A DNA stretch of 49,012 nt from Bacillota bacterium (GTDB lineage Bacteria > Bacillota_I > Bacilli_A > RFN20 > CAG-826), in NCBI GenBank assembly GCA_030834445.1, contig JAURFC010000006.1:1-49012 (forward strand), in the 5' to 3' direction. The notes under the pieces were generated by a model, which saw nothing but the letters and a program-made list of their open reading frames with translations, ran no database searches and was not told the origin of the DNA. Below are positions 25,957 through 42,240 of this stretch, in pieces (positions within the stretch are counted from its first letter, which is position 1; each line of letters starts with the position of its first letter). The position numbers were made by a program, and so were the translations under genes.

Positions 25957-27162
25957 ATGACGAAGTTTCAACATCTTATTACCAAACTACTATCCTGGCT
26001 TGACCGTTATCAATTTGAGGTGATTGCCTGCTTTTTACTTCTATTTGGTATCATCGTTCGCTTGAATGTGTCGTACTTTATTTCAGGAGACTATGTAAGT
26101 TTTCTTCGCCCATGGATGAATCAAATTGTTGAGAATGGTGGGTTTGCCTCGTTGCGATTAACGATTGGCGATTACACACCGCCTTACATGTACTTGTTAA
26201 CCATACTTTCGTATTTCCCTTCCGCCTCTGAGAATCATCCCTTTTTATTCGGTATAAAATTTTACTCCCTTGGTTTCGACCTACTTTTAGTGGTTGCCGT
26301 TTATTTGAATGTGCGACTCCTTCATAAAACGCATGGTCATCAATGGGGTGTTTTAGCGGGTTTATTAATTTTCTTTCTCCCTACCGTGATTCTCAATAGT
26401 GCGTATTGGGGTCAAATTGATGCGAGTTATACCGCGTTTTCCTTATTCGCCCTCTATTACTTACAAAAAGAAAGATTGATTCCTTCCATGCTTTGGTATG
26501 GTGTGGCGTTGTCGTTTAAACTCCAATCGATTTTCTTTCTCCCCGTCTTCATTCTTTATTTTTGGTTTAAATATCGCGGAAAACTCCATTATTTCTTTCT
26601 TTTACCCTTAGTCTATTACGGACTCGCGATTCCTTCATTGATCACGGGACGATCGTTTTTAGACATTACCTTGATTTATGTCAATCAAGCGGAAAATTAC
26701 CGAGCCTTAACACTCAATATGCCGAATTTATATCAATGGTTACCGAATCGTTATGATGATTTAAGTGGACTTGGTTTTGCTGTATTTACCTCTTTAATGG
26801 GTCTTGTCTTTTTAACGATGACGATGCAAAAAACCAAGTTATCTTCATCGATGGTTATTCCTTTAGCATTTTGGAGTGTCCTCATGGCAAACTTTTTCTT
26901 ACCCGCGATGCATGAACGTTATTTATTTGGCGCGGATATCACGAGTATCATTTTGCTCTTTATGATGCCGAAAGCTTGGATCTATCCTGTGGTCACACAG
27001 TTTATCTCCTTACTTGCGTATACACCGTTCTTATTTGGAACTGAGATTGTGAAACACGAAGAGGTTGCCGTAGTCTATTTACTATTCTTAGCATATGTTA
27101 ACTATCAATTCATTCGACCGCTAATAAACGTGTCGCTACCATCGCTTAAATTTCACGATTAA
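25957..27162 (+). CDS. Polytopic membrane mannosyltransferase-like protein (GT-C fold)
   Basis: This 401-residue protein has about ten membrane helices. Two features suggest a GT-C lipid-linked-sugar transferase of the PMT/PIG-M-like type. One is an acidic residue in the first outer loop (ISGDYVSFLRPWMNQI, with a following DYTPPYMYLL). The other is the AYWGQIDASYT motif after helix 4, plus MHERYLF near the end. Such enzymes use polyprenyl-phosphate sugars to glycosylate lipids or proteins outside the membrane. Substrate unknown. Its promoter is leaderless. It may serve the glycan genes further right (inference). Confidence 0.7.
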   Translation: MTKFQHLITKLLSWLDRYQFEVIACFLLLFGIIVRLNVSYFISGDYVSFLRPWMNQIVENGGFASLRLTIGDYTPPYMYLLTILSYFPSASENHPFLFGIKFYSLGFDLLLVVAVYLNVRLLHKTHGHQWGVLAGLLIFFLPTVILNSAYWGQIDASYTAFSLFALYYLQKERLIPSMLWYGVALSFKLQSIFFLPVFILYFWFKYRGKLHYFFLLPLVYYGLAIPSLITGRSFLDITLIYVNQAENYRALTLNMPNLYQWLPNRYDDLSGLGFAVFTSLMGLVFLTMTMQKTKLSSSMVIPLAFWSVLMANFFLPAMHERYLFGADITSIILLFMMPKAWIYPVVTQFISLLAYTPFLFGTEIVKHEEVAVVYLLFLAYVNYQFIRPLINVSLPSLKFHD

Positions 27163-27243
27163 ACGTGTTTGAAATTTTAATCAAATTTACTTATCTTTAC
27201 ACCTTTTTATGCTAAAATACAACTAACAAAAAGGTGGTTTTGT

Positions 27244-28113
27244 ATGAAAAAATTAGGCAATCTATTATTAGTTTTACTCGGCCTTGCATGGGTGGGAATT
27301 GTTGTCGGTTATGGTGCTGTCAATAATTTTGCGTTTGAACCTTTGCTTGATAGTCTTATCGCTCTTGGAACAGGGACAATCGACCATTTATTATCTTTTA
27401 TTAATCCGTTAACCCTTGGATTAAGATTGTACGTATATGCTGGCGTCCTCATCCTTGGGTTAGTTCTGGGTTTATTTATTTTTATTCGATTATTAAAACA
27501 AGGACGTATTTTCAAAGCATTACTTGGATTTGTAAGTCCACTGATTGTGGCAGGTTTAGGTATTGCCTTCGTTGCCCCAGACTATTTTTCAACCGGATTG
27601 GCATTTTACGAATATCTATTATCCGTAGTTACTACGAGTCTACCAACAGTTCTTTTCCTGGGTACATTAACGATTATTCCGGTTCTATTTTTTGGCATTG
27701 TCACTTTACAAGGTTTATTTTCAACACGTAATCGATTAGCTAAAGCCGGTAAACCTAAAAAAGTCGTTATAAAGAAAACAAAAGCTCAAGCGTTAGAATC
27801 ATCAGTAGCCGCTTCCGCAGTGCCACTTGCTCAAGCCACTCCAATCACTGCGCCCATTCCAGCTTCAGCGTCATCCAATTCAGATTTACAATTGACTGAA
27901 CTCGTTAAATTAGTGTTAGCGGAAGAACTCACCGGAGCTCGTCAACCCGCTTACAATCCGTATGCAACCCCCGCGATGGATCCCAATCTTATCCGCCGAA
28001 TTGTAGCGGAAGAATTAGCGAAATTCCAAACGCACTTCATTACGCGCGCTGAAGCACAAACGCTCGTTGCCCAAGAAATTGCTGCCTTAAAAGCCCAATT
28101 AAAAGTTAAATAG
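27244..28113 (+). CDS. Four-helix membrane protein with Ala/Pro linker and helical C-terminal repeats
   Basis: This is a 289-residue protein of unknown function. Four hydrophobic helices (about 4-26, 60-82, 93-111, 130-157) are followed by a basic segment (KKVVIKKTKAQ), an Ala/Pro/Ser-rich linker (about 188-215), and a cytoplasmic tail. The tail holds three similar short helices of the form xxLVxxEE(L/I): LVKLVLAEEL, IRRIVAEEL and AQTLVAQEIAAL. The tail could bind a partner or DNA-associated protein (guess). A good AAAAGGTGG lies before the ATG. The stop is inside the convergent Rieske gene (8-base overlap). Confidence 0.7.
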   Translation: MKKLGNLLLVLLGLAWVGIVVGYGAVNNFAFEPLLDSLIALGTGTIDHLLSFINPLTLGLRLYVYAGVLILGLVLGLFIFIRLLKQGRIFKALLGFVSPLIVAGLGIAFVAPDYFSTGLAFYEYLLSVVTTSLPTVLFLGTLTIIPVLFFGIVTLQGLFSTRNRLAKAGKPKKVVIKKTKAQALESSVAASAVPLAQATPITAPIPASASSNSDLQLTELVKLVLAEELTGARQPAYNPYATPAMDPNLIRRIVAEELAKFQTHFITRAEAQTLVAQEIAALKAQLKVK

Positions 28114-28441
28114 TTTCTTGCCAATCGACGTAAATTGAATCACCATCAATTCCTAACGGATAGGTGGTGATTTTTTCTGGTCCAAAATCAAAATAAAGCA
28201 TTTTACTCACTTCATCAATGTCCCCTGTCACAACATCAAACGTGGCTTTATGAAGCGGGCATGTCACACAATTTTCTTGAAGGGTACCTTCATAGAGGGA
28301 TGCATCTTGATGGGGACACGTATCGGGAATCATATAGGGTTTATCCCCGACCAAGACAATTAAGTAGGGTGTTTTACCAATCAAAACACGTCGTTTTTTT
28401 TCGGCTTGTAATTGCTGTAAGGTGGTTAATTGTATTTTCAT
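28106..28441 (-). CDS. Rieske [2Fe-2S] ferredoxin-like protein
   Basis: This 111-residue soluble protein has both cluster motifs: CPH (42-44) and CPLH (61-64), giving two Cys and two His ligands for a [2Fe-2S] centre. Small standalone Rieske proteins act as electron donors for oxygenases or are of unknown role; the small subunit of nitrite reductase (NirD) is related. No oxygenase lies nearby. A minus-strand TATGCT (28453-28448) ends six bases before the ATG, so it is probably leaderless. An additional Cys58 lies just before the second motif. Confidence 0.88.
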   Translation of the reverse strand: MKIQLTTLQQLQAEKKRRVLIGKTPYLIVLVGDKPYMIPDTCPHQDASLYEGTLQENCVTCPLHKATFDVVTGDIDEVSKMLYFDFGPEKITTYPLGIDGDSIYVDWQETI

Positions 28442-28447
28442 ACTTCA

Positions 28448-28453
28448 AGCATA
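28448..28453 (-). promoter_or_regulatory. -10 box of Rieske gene, leaderless arrangement
   Basis: TATGCT on the minus strand, six bases before ATG 28441. Confidence 0.5.
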
Positions 28454-28487
28454 GGGGATAAAAACAACGCGTATCAAGGAATATACA

Positions 28488-28590
28488 AAATAAAAACATC
28501 CATTATGGGGGATAATGGATGTTCTGTAGTGGCATACGCCATAACAGCAAATTAGTGTGGCACATGTTAAGTATTGCTTAACAGGAGCAA
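28488..28590 (-). ncRNA. Candidate small RNA with own promoter and terminator
   Basis: The gene-free stretch 28442-28613 contains, on the minus strand, TTGACA (28623-28618), 15 bases, TATACT (28602-28597), then about 100 bases ending in a strong terminator. Along the predicted RNA are three hairpins: TGTTAAG-CAATA-CTTAACA; TGGC-GTAT-GCCA closed further by TGT/ACA; and a 12-bp terminator stem with loop CCCCC followed by TTTTATTTT. A GCTCC segment near the 5' end and the all-C loop are complementary to Shine-Dalgarno sequences, a feature of known Gram-positive regulatory RNAs. No start codon with a ribosome-binding site and no sizeable reading frame is apparent. No family recognised. Confidence 0.6.
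28495..28523 (-). terminator. Rho-independent terminator of candidate small RNA
   Basis: AACATCCATTAT, loop CCCCC, ATAATGGATGTT then TTTATTTT on the minus strand. No plus-strand T-tract exists and no minus-strand protein gene ends here, which is the main reason to propose a small RNA. Confidence 0.8.
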
Positions 28591-28596
28591 CATAAG

Positions 28597-28623
28597 AGTA
28601 TAATATTTTTTAGATGTTGTCAA
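28597..28623. promoter_or_regulatory. Overlapping divergent promoters (small RNA minus, acetyltransferase plus)
   Basis: AGTATAAT (28597-28604) reads TATAAT on plus (nine bases before ATG 28614, leaderless) and TATACT on minus. The minus -35 TTGACA (28623-28618) lies inside the first codons of the acetyltransferase gene. The two promoters cannot easily be occupied together. Confidence 0.6.
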
Positions 28624-29135
28624 AAGAAATCATACGATTTGCAATCCCCTCCGATTTACCCCCTATTATGGAGGGGATAAATCGTTGTAAGAAGCAACTT
28701 TTTTTCCATGAAAGTGGGCAATGGCAATCTGGAGAACCGAGTGAAGAAACCATACTAAATGATATCGAAAATCACCAGTATATTGTGCTTGAAAGTGAAG
28801 GTCTTATCTTAGGTGGCATGGCAGTACTTATGCATGAACCAGCGTATGATCACCTCCTTGAAGGGGCATGGTTAAACGAAGACCCTTATGGGGTTCTGCA
28901 TCGCTTTTATATTCATCCGGATTATCAACAACAAGGCAATGCCCAGCGGTTATTCGCGTGGGCATGTGAATACCTTTCTCAGCAAGGCATCTTGAATATT
29001 CGAATTGATACCCATGAAAAGAATGTTCCAATGCGAAATTCGTTAACGAAGTTTGGTTTTTTGCATGTAGGGAAAGCATATTTACCCGGCGCAGGGGAAC
29101 GGTGGGTGTATCATAAAATGTATGAAAAAAAGTAA
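28614..29135 (+). CDS. GNAT family N-acetyltransferase
   Basis: This 173-residue acetyl-CoA-dependent transferase shows the acetyl-CoA-binding motif A at about 102-120 (RFYIHPDYQQQGNAQRLF, with Q-Q-G-N in place of the usual Q-x-x-G-x-G/A) and the late NSLTKFGFLHVG block. The acceptor (amine, antibiotic, protein) is unknown. The start ATG lies nine bases after TATAAT, without a ribosome-binding site. Its 3' end overlaps the SDR gene by 14 bases, so the two are cotranscribed. Confidence 0.85.
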   Translation: MLSKEIIRFAIPSDLPPIMEGINRCKKQLFFHESGQWQSGEPSEETILNDIENHQYIVLESEGLILGGMAVLMHEPAYDHLLEGAWLNEDPYGVLHRFYIHPDYQQQGNAQRLFAWACEYLSQQGILNIRIDTHEKNVPMRNSLTKFGFLHVGKAYLPGAGERWVYHKMYEKK

Positions 29136-30030
29136 CTATTCATCGCAGTCTTTAAAGGATAAGGTCGTCATTGTCACCGGGGGTAATTCCGGGATTGGTT
29201 TGTTTTCCGTTTTGGATGCACTTCACGATGGGGCGTATGTAGTCATGGCGTCCCGTTCGATGCAAAAAGCAGAAGAAGCAAAACAATTTCTTGCGACAAA
29301 AACATCCGTCGAACGGCTAACCATTCTTTCTCTTGATGTCAGTTCATTATCCTCCGTCCAAACCTTTGTACAAACATTTTTAAAAACGTTTCAACATGTT
29401 GATATTTTAGTGAATAACGCAGGCATTATGTTTGGTGATTATCACCGCACCGAGGACGGATTTGAACGGCAAATGGCAACCAACCACTTCGGTCATTTTG
29501 CCTTAACGGCTTCATTATTTCCGATGATGGCGAAAGATGCGCGCATTATTCAAGTCTCAAGCATTGCCCATAAACGGGCGGAAATGGATCTGAATCAACT
29601 CGCGTATGAGGATGGCAAAGGGTACACGCCCTGGGGGGCATATAGTCGGAGTAAACTTGCCAATCTTTGGTTTGCCTTCGCTCTCGCCGATCGCTTAAAA
29701 GCCTACAATCGTACGATAAAATCCCTGGTCGTTCACCCTGGTGTATCAAAGACCAATTTATTTTTCAAAGAAAAAGGCAAACAACCCCTTTACAATCTAT
29801 TAAAAGTACTCATGCCGTTACAATCAGCGGAAAAAGGCGCATTACCGACCTTGCGCGCGATGCATGATGTCGATGCACAAAATGGCGATTTCTTTGGTCC
29901 AGAAGGGTTGGCAGAATTTGGTGGAAAAGCGGTTCGCGTTCAGGCAAGTCGTCTGGCGCAAAATCGCTTGCTTGCAGACCAATTTTTTACGTTATCCGAA
30001 ACTTTAACCAAAACAAAATTTATTTTTTAA
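29122..30030 (+). CDS. Short-chain dehydrogenase/reductase (retinol-dehydrogenase-like)
   Basis: This 302-residue NAD(P)-binding oxidoreductase has the cofactor motif TGGNSGIG (19-26), NNAG (98-101), catalytic Ser146/147, Tyr174 and Lys178 in YSRSK. The length and the VHPGVSKTNLF segment place it near the RDH/WWOX-like SDRs; substrate is not predictable. It overlaps the acetyltransferase start-to-end by 14 bases and the convergent DUF2892 gene by 11 bases. Confidence 0.92.
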   Translation: MKKSNYSSQSLKDKVVIVTGGNSGIGLFSVLDALHDGAYVVMASRSMQKAEEAKQFLATKTSVERLTILSLDVSSLSSVQTFVQTFLKTFQHVDILVNNAGIMFGDYHRTEDGFERQMATNHFGHFALTASLFPMMAKDARIIQVSSIAHKRAEMDLNQLAYEDGKGYTPWGAYSRSKLANLWFAFALADRLKAYNRTIKSLVVHPGVSKTNLFFKEKGKQPLYNLLKVLMPLQSAEKGALPTLRAMHDVDAQNGDFFGPEGLAEFGGKAVRVQASRLAQNRLLADQFFTLSETLTKTKFIF

Positions 30031-41682: not shown

Positions 41683-42240
41683 ATGCTTCGCAAACCCATT
41701 ATAACCATCAAGGAAATGACCTTAATGGCTGTCTTAGTCGCAATTACGATTGCTTTAGATGCAATAAAATTACTCCCCATGATCAATGGCGGATCGATTA
41801 ACGGAGCAATGATTGGTTTAGCCCTCATTGCTTTATGTTTTTCACCCATCAAAACGTTCATTGCCACTTCGCTCATTTTTGGATTACTGACCGCACTTTT
41901 AGATGGGTATCTTGCTTTTTACGTGTTTGATTATTTCTTTGCATTAAGTGGATTTTTTATGATTTCACTTTTTCGAGAACTTATTTTAAAAGGCGATAAG
42001 CGTGTTGCAATCCCCACCTTATATGTTGCTTTTTTCTTTGCTTTCTTAGTGCGATTTACGAGCCATGTCATTAGCGGAATCCTTTATTTTGAAGTCGATT
42101 TTGCCGGTTCAGTTGCGTATAACATCACCTATCTTGCCCCAAGTTTTTTATTAACCCTTATTGCCTTGGGCTTTTTTATGCTTTCAAGCTTAAGGAATCA
42201 AATCGCCAAAATAACCCTTGTTAGTTATTTTGACCGCTAA
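41683..42240 (+). CDS. thiT: ECF transporter S component, thiamine (ThiT-like)
   Basis: This 185-residue, six-helix membrane protein would bind thiamine and work with shared ECF ATPase and T subunits encoded elsewhere. Helix 1 (EMTLMAVLVAITIALDAIKLLP) and the loop INGGSINGAMIGLALIAL match S components, and YVFDYFFALSGFF matches the thiamine-site helix of ThiT. The TPP riboswitch immediately upstream strongly supports thiamine or a precursor as the ligand. No thiamine biosynthesis gene is near, suggesting salvage. Confidence 0.87.
   Translation: MLRKPIITIKEMTLMAVLVAITIALDAIKLLPMINGGSINGAMIGLALIALCFSPIKTFIATSLIFGLLTALLDGYLAFYVFDYFFALSGFFMISLFRELILKGDKRVAIPTLYVAFFFAFLVRFTSHVISGILYFEVDFAGSVAYNITYLAPSFLLTLIALGFFMLSSLRNQIAKITLVSYFDR

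Follow-up and report, generated by a model that had tools for sequence, protein, structure and literature searches.

The LhrC small RNAs of Listeria can pair with the Shine-Dalgarno region of a target leader through any of three sites, namely the terminator loop, loop A and a single-stranded stretch (PMC4132741). A precedent of another kind is offered by bidirectional promoters, in which a near-symmetric -10 element gives rise to divergent starts about 18 bp apart (PMC10268837). Here we describe a locus that resembles both systems in part. It lies in a window of 49,012 nucleotides, the whole stretch of DNA that was analysed (assembly GCA_030834445.1, contig JAURFC010000006.1), from a genome of the Bacilli that we designate G000.

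Like LhrC, the RNA predicted at this locus is short and ends in an intrinsic terminator with a C-rich segment in its loop (PMC4132741). Unlike LhrC, which has three redundant CU-rich motifs and five copies, it is a single-copy element with one conserved C-rich site, the invariant terminator loop, and this reads CCCCC instead of the CUCCC of LhrC; no Hfq gene was found in this genome. The RNA also has the terminator-ended hairpin structure and the typical size of small RNAs in Rfam release 15, but in the window it matches none of these families at the gathering threshold, and with permissive thresholds the Rfam matches at the locus do not rise above chance. With the bidirectional promoters it shares a near-symmetric -10 element on both strands and, for two of the relatives, a predicted distance of about 18 bp between the starts; it differs from them in that the reverse RNA would have a conserved, structured body and a terminator of its own, and the starts used in this comparison are predicted ones (PMC10268837).

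Organization of the locus

Two genes diverge from the intergenic region 28442–28613 of the window: a gene for a GNAT acetyltransferase (Pfam PF00583; 28614–29135, plus strand) and a gene for a Rieske [2Fe-2S] domain protein (PF00355; 28106–28441, minus strand), the latter being the downstream neighbour of the element studied here. The predicted small RNA, bounded by a promoter and a terminator, occupies 28486–28593 on the minus strand and is about 105–108 nt long, depending on whether its 5′ end is placed at 28593 or at about 28590. The initial annotation had recognized a minus-strand terminator with a 12-bp stem at a place where no minus-strand protein gene ends, and the terminator scan, the fold and the gene neighbours all confirmed this. 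The terminator hairpin (28523–28495, minus strand) consists of AACATCCATTAT-CCCCC-ATAATGGATGTT followed by TTTTTATTTTG; the arms around CCCCC can also be written AACAUCCAUUAU and AUAAUGGAUGUU, with UUUUUAUUUUG as the T-run. Its stem has 14 pairs according to the terminator scan and 12 according to the fold, and only this one of the two terminator-like sites listed in 27000–30000 has both a long stem and a full T-run. It belongs to no protein gene: no minus-strand gene ends there, and the Rieske gene starts downstream. Because the T-tract is present on one side only, the element has a minus-strand direction.

The CCCCC loop of the terminator (28507–28511) is preceded by hairpin A (28524–28547), which is formed by CUGU/ACAG and UGGC/GCCA helices separated by a 2x2 internal loop and closed by a GUAU or GAAU apical loop. 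Hairpin A and the terminator together make up a 66-nt 3′ core (28486–28551). Closer to the 5′ end is a further hairpin, TGTTAAG-CAATA-CTTAACA (28565–28583), which is also a DNA dyad. In the window, the small-RNA stretch folds with a z-score of about -6, and none of 200 shuffled sequences was equally stable; across the four genomes that hold the locus, z-scores range from -4.5 to -6.8 and the predicted RNA lengths from 105 to 113 nt, even though the 5′ part differs in sequence.

Predicted promoters of the divergent genes

The promoter proposed earlier for the small RNA, TTGACA/TATACT, is indeed present, with its -35 element at 28623–28618 (minus strand), inside the GNAT start region, and TATACT at 28602–28597. 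The spacer of 15 is short for sigma-70, and the promoter is therefore not listed by a scan that requires spacers of 16–18. Matches of at least 11/12 with spacers of 15–19 occur at 0.023 per strand-kb in G000, and each of the four genomes has one in the corresponding position, 43–53 nt upstream of the core. A caution applies to this figure: TTGACA shares bases with the first codons of GNAT, as does the small-RNA -10 with that of GNAT (TATAAT, 28599–28604, plus strand), and these two features account for part of the conservation of the putative promoter. The -10 region (28597–28605) can be read on the minus strand either as TATACT or as TATTAT (28605–28600), and the latter is the symmetric form: in 4/4 genomes TATAAT on the GNAT strand is matched by TATTAT on the opposite strand. 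TATAAT stands 6 nt before the GNAT ATG in the homologous loci L003 and L004, where the gene would be leaderless, and 9 nt before it in the window. For L003 and L004, the -10 symmetry predicts divergent starts separated by about 18 bp.

A -10 box 6 nt before the start codon is common in this genome. In the start regions of 629 genes of G000, TATAAT-like boxes are most frequent at distances of 6 nt (33 genes) and 7 nt (20 genes) upstream of the start codon, compared with about 5 per position elsewhere, and a Shine-Dalgarno-like motif precedes 263 of the 629. The two features coincide in a single gene, where their frequencies (53 and 263 of 629) would lead one to expect about 22. The split between leaderless and leadered genes that the initial annotation had assumed is thus real in G000, where roughly one in ten of the genes tested appears to be leaderless.

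The Rieske gene has a similar arrangement. A promoter-scan match, TTGATA-18-TATGCT (28448–28477, minus strand), ends 6 nt before its ATG; in all four genomes a TA...T box, weak in L003, is found at this distance directly behind the terminator, with TTGACA or TTGATA upstream of it. Since leaderless genes with the same 6-nt spacing are common here, the Rieske gene most likely has its own promoter, judging from these motifs, and the terminator would therefore not be its simple attenuator.

Conservation within the genus

A DNA search of 58 relatives matched the stretch in three other genomes, all of the same genus. One is a close relative with 94% identity over the whole stretch (locus L002); two distant ones match part of it only. 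The 66-nt core, which is present in a single copy per genome in all four genus members holding the locus, is identical at 66/66 positions between the window and L002, at 60/66 between the window and each of L003 and L004, and at 64/66 between L003 and L004. The terminator hairpin (29/29) and its CCCCC loop are invariant in the four genomes, and so are all pairs of hairpin A, in which the differences lie in the loops only. Outside L002 the sequence of the 5′ hairpin differs and the other genomes have different short hairpins at that place; the 5′ half of the small RNA shows no conservation in this sample, which comprises four genomes from two main lineages.

These findings bear unevenly on the initial annotation. 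It had placed two further hairpins upstream of the terminator, both of which exist, but only that at 28524–28547 is conserved, the one at 28565–28583 not being kept beyond the closest relative. Its C-rich segments fare likewise: CCCCC is invariant, whereas the nearest relative has GCTCG in place of the GCTCC near the 5′ end, and the two distant genomes lack this segment. The conservation that it called for in related genomes thus extends to two of the three hairpins and the loop, and its reading is not refuted by this test. Comparison of the genomes strongly supports a small RNA gene: all four keep the promoter sequence, hairpin A, the terminator with its CCCCC loop and roughly the total length. 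The covariance search that it had also suggested gave about 98 bits for each of the four genus members. As none of the 20 base pairs varies among them, covariation neither supports nor opposes the structure.

The neighbouring proteins have diverged far more. Protein identities are 42–48% for GNAT and 53–56% for Rieske (42–43% and 56% between the window and L003, which belongs to genome G004), and L003 and L004 are themselves distinct, with 58% identity in GNAT and 80% in Rieske. Synonymous positions of conserved amino acids are about 33% identical between G000 and G004 orthologs, that is, near saturation. That the core stayed nearly unchanged under these circumstances points to selection on its bases. 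We note that the GNAT gene of L002 (G002:C33 26101–26718) matches as two pieces joined at residue 122, an indication of a frameshift or of a fault in the assembly.

As a control we compared 46 pairs of terminators located behind orthologous genes of G000 and G004. Their median identity is 65% and the 95th percentile 90%; the 29-nt hairpin of the element is 100% identical, a value reached by only one other pair, at contig C4. Among G000 intergenic stretches shorter than 450 nt, without tRNA and with at least 78% identity, only four gave higher-scoring G000–G004 alignments, which places the candidate among the five most conserved non-tRNA intergenic stretches of this length. One of the four is RNase P, and another is a TPP riboswitch that lies in the same window, upstream of a thiamine transporter gene. 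The third is located between genes with infA- and rpsM-like starts, a place usually occupied by rpmJ, and the fourth is at the start of G000 contig C11 (L041 136–274). In this genome the class B RNase P RNA (L085 19156–19400, minus strand) scores 161.6 bits. The TPP riboswitch (RF00059; 41534–41640, plus strand) scores 53.3 bits, is missed at the default threshold because the gathering score is 54.3, and is followed by the transporter gene (PF09515) at 41683. The stretch on contig C11 comprises 139 nt of intergenic sequence that is 83% identical to G004, and it has no Rfam match at E 0.1.

Distribution

Searching 224 genomes of the family with the covariance model returned those four genus members and, in the other 220, matches of at most 27.4 bits. 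We rejected these weak matches: the one in L014 is a lone hairpin with no terminator behind it, and the others are terminator-like hairpins unrelated to the element. The pattern of the loop and inner stem was found in three records of the genus among 84,980 species, each represented by one genome; three further matches in that set lack hairpin A and were discarded as chance. The exact loop-and-stem pattern was found in none of the viral contigs. The three genus records are titled as MAGs of Bacilli, Bacillota and Staphylococcus epidermidis; from the isolate names, all three presumably come from lakes. The record titled Staphylococcus epidermidis (CAMBSI010000029.1, L025) contains a locus of the present genus, and its label is probably wrong.

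Relatives of the GNAT and Rieske genes in other genera have no recognizable element adjoining them, and no divergent Rieske/GNAT pair was seen there. In a fifth genome of the genus, G003 (70% complete), none of the Rieske, GNAT and orthologous SDR genes is present, which makes it uninformative on whether the element by itself can be lost. No account of this RNA was found in the literature searched. The best reading of these comparisons is that the putative small RNA is restricted to the genus, with no relative found outside it.

Probable function of the element and alternative explanations

The element at 28486–28605 very probably does something, judging from its 3′ 66 bases, which are nearly unchanged while the adjoining genes diverged. 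We consider it probable that it is a functional, genus-restricted gene for a small non-coding RNA. The strongest competing explanation, which we regard as unlikely, is that an ordinary terminator shields the Rieske gene from unwanted divergent transcription that the symmetric GNAT promoter would send towards it, with the short RNA as a by-product. The -10 symmetry in 4/4 genomes and the start geometry of about 18 bp in L003 and L004, as in PMC10268837, agree with such an insulator, and the placement of the terminator between the symmetric -10 and the Rieske promoter would explain both its position and its direction. An insulator, however, needs a stem and a U-tract only, as illustrated by the other orthologous terminators at their median identity of 65%, and the conservation of the sequence of the terminator and hairpin A is left unexplained. 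The sequence invariance could be accounted for if the 12-5-12 palindrome, which is perfect, acted at the DNA level as an operator or recombination site, given that RNA structure alone would not require invariance; yet the palindrome exists in a single copy, the next best match being 17/24 in G000 and 18/24 in G004, and neither the one-sided T-tract nor the adjoining conserved hairpin would be explained, which makes a DNA site improbable.

A cis-acting leader of the Rieske gene, either an attenuator or a riboswitch, is more improbable still. It would fit the position of the terminator about 45–50 nt upstream of the Rieske start in 4/4 genomes, where synteny is kept, but in all four the terminator is followed by a separate promoter sequence of the leaderless type, inspection revealed no conserved sequence that could pair with the 5′ arm of the terminator as an antiterminator, and there was no match to a riboswitch family in Rfam. 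The remaining candidate is a conserved gene for a small peptide on the minus strand (which reads MAYATTEHPLSPIMDVF in the window), as an open frame of 22–30 codons overlaps the core in 4/4 genomes. Within its first 20 codons, each distant comparison has 0 synonymous and 4 amino-acid-changing codon differences, and no Shine-Dalgarno sequence was seen before the frame. The absence of synonymous changes is the reverse of coding constraint and argues against a peptide gene, a reading to which we give hardly any credence. The anatomy of the predicted RNA gene, its single copy, its conservation at the nucleotide and not the protein level, and the apparently independent promoter sequence downstream come from sequence comparison; its transcription and its pairing mechanism we infer.

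Possible mode of action and targets

For the small RNA, we propose that the -10 region, which by its symmetry would serve both this RNA and the divergent GNAT gene, directs RNA polymerase to begin a minus-strand transcript at about 28593. This transcript of about 105 nt would consist of a variable 5′ part, hairpin A and the intrinsic terminator, and would end just before the Rieske promoter. The invariant 66-nt 3′ core would be its functional part, and the terminator loop, CCCCC (core UAUCCCCCAUA), may pair in trans with G-rich leaders, without Hfq. Such pairing is the leading mode of action, although we put it forward tentatively. Among the unpaired segments, only the CCCCC loop and small loops within hairpin A are invariant. 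A CCCCC-loop hairpin with a stem longer than 8 bp is unique in G000, and one of at least 7 bp is unique in the fetched part of G004. Neither Hfq (PF17209) nor CsrA (PF02599) has a match in this genome, which is estimated to be 93% complete.

The initial annotation had envisaged pairing with Shine-Dalgarno sequences as a class, so that the leadered genes would form a defined class of targets. This is not supported: the 5′ GCTCC is not conserved, CCCCC is a poor fit to the prevailing AGGAGG and fits only rare GGGGGA signals, and conserved complementarity is at the level of shuffled seeds. Screening the loop seed against 619 ortholog pairs, with shuffled seeds as the control, yielded 13 conserved duplexes at or below -9 kcal/mol where 13.0 were expected, and a slight excess at or below -12 kcal/mol (2 against 0.7). 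By an automated count, just 5 of 619 G000 genes have GGGGGA, and a single ortholog shares it between G000 and G004.

The best candidate targets would be genes with such rare GGGGGA ribosome-binding sites, for example glmS and glnA. The former is the top target match and has GGGGGA as its ribosome-binding site in 4/4 genomes that possess the gene; glnA has it in four of five genomes (G000, G002, G003 and G001), with GGAGGGG in G004. That both concern glutamine is suggestive, but they were chosen after the list had been viewed and are statistically inseparable from chance. A C5 loop that recognizes only the rare GGGGGA sites and so co-regulates glutamine use through glnA and glmS, in an organism with no recognizable Hfq and many leaderless genes, is a speculative and rather improbable scheme.

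Two other genes with GGGGGA were set aside. In uppS (G000:C20, about 29800), the upstream sequence GGGGGA(A)GTTGTATAAT is kept in G004. This gene, one of the two matches at or below -12 kcal/mol, looks leaderless: between GGGGGA and the ATG there is a TATAAT box at a distance of 6 nt from the start codon, and the upstream sequence resembles a leaderless promoter whose spacer contains a G-run. In zwf, where GGGGGA is kept in three genomes, the bases appear on inspection to be the coding end of the upstream gene. Another CCCCC is found inside the GNAT coding sequence (28643–28681, plus strand), where a 9-bp inverted repeat, ATCCCCTCC/GGAGGGGAT, surrounds it (ACCCCCTATTAT); GGGGATAA at this place is complementary to 8 bases at the loop of the small RNA and, by inspection, is absent in L003.

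Implications

The element would represent a small RNA family without an Rfam match in an uncultivated lake lineage of Bacilli with genomes of about 1 Mb, conserved with a strength on par with that of RNase P and the TPP riboswitch of the same genome. Were it only an insulating terminator, its unusual sequence conservation would itself need explaining. The many leaderless mRNAs of this organism, in which neither Hfq nor CsrA was found, limit the mRNAs on which an RNA can act, and the small RNA would be a clean case for studying how Hfq-independent small RNAs choose their targets among many leader-free mRNAs.
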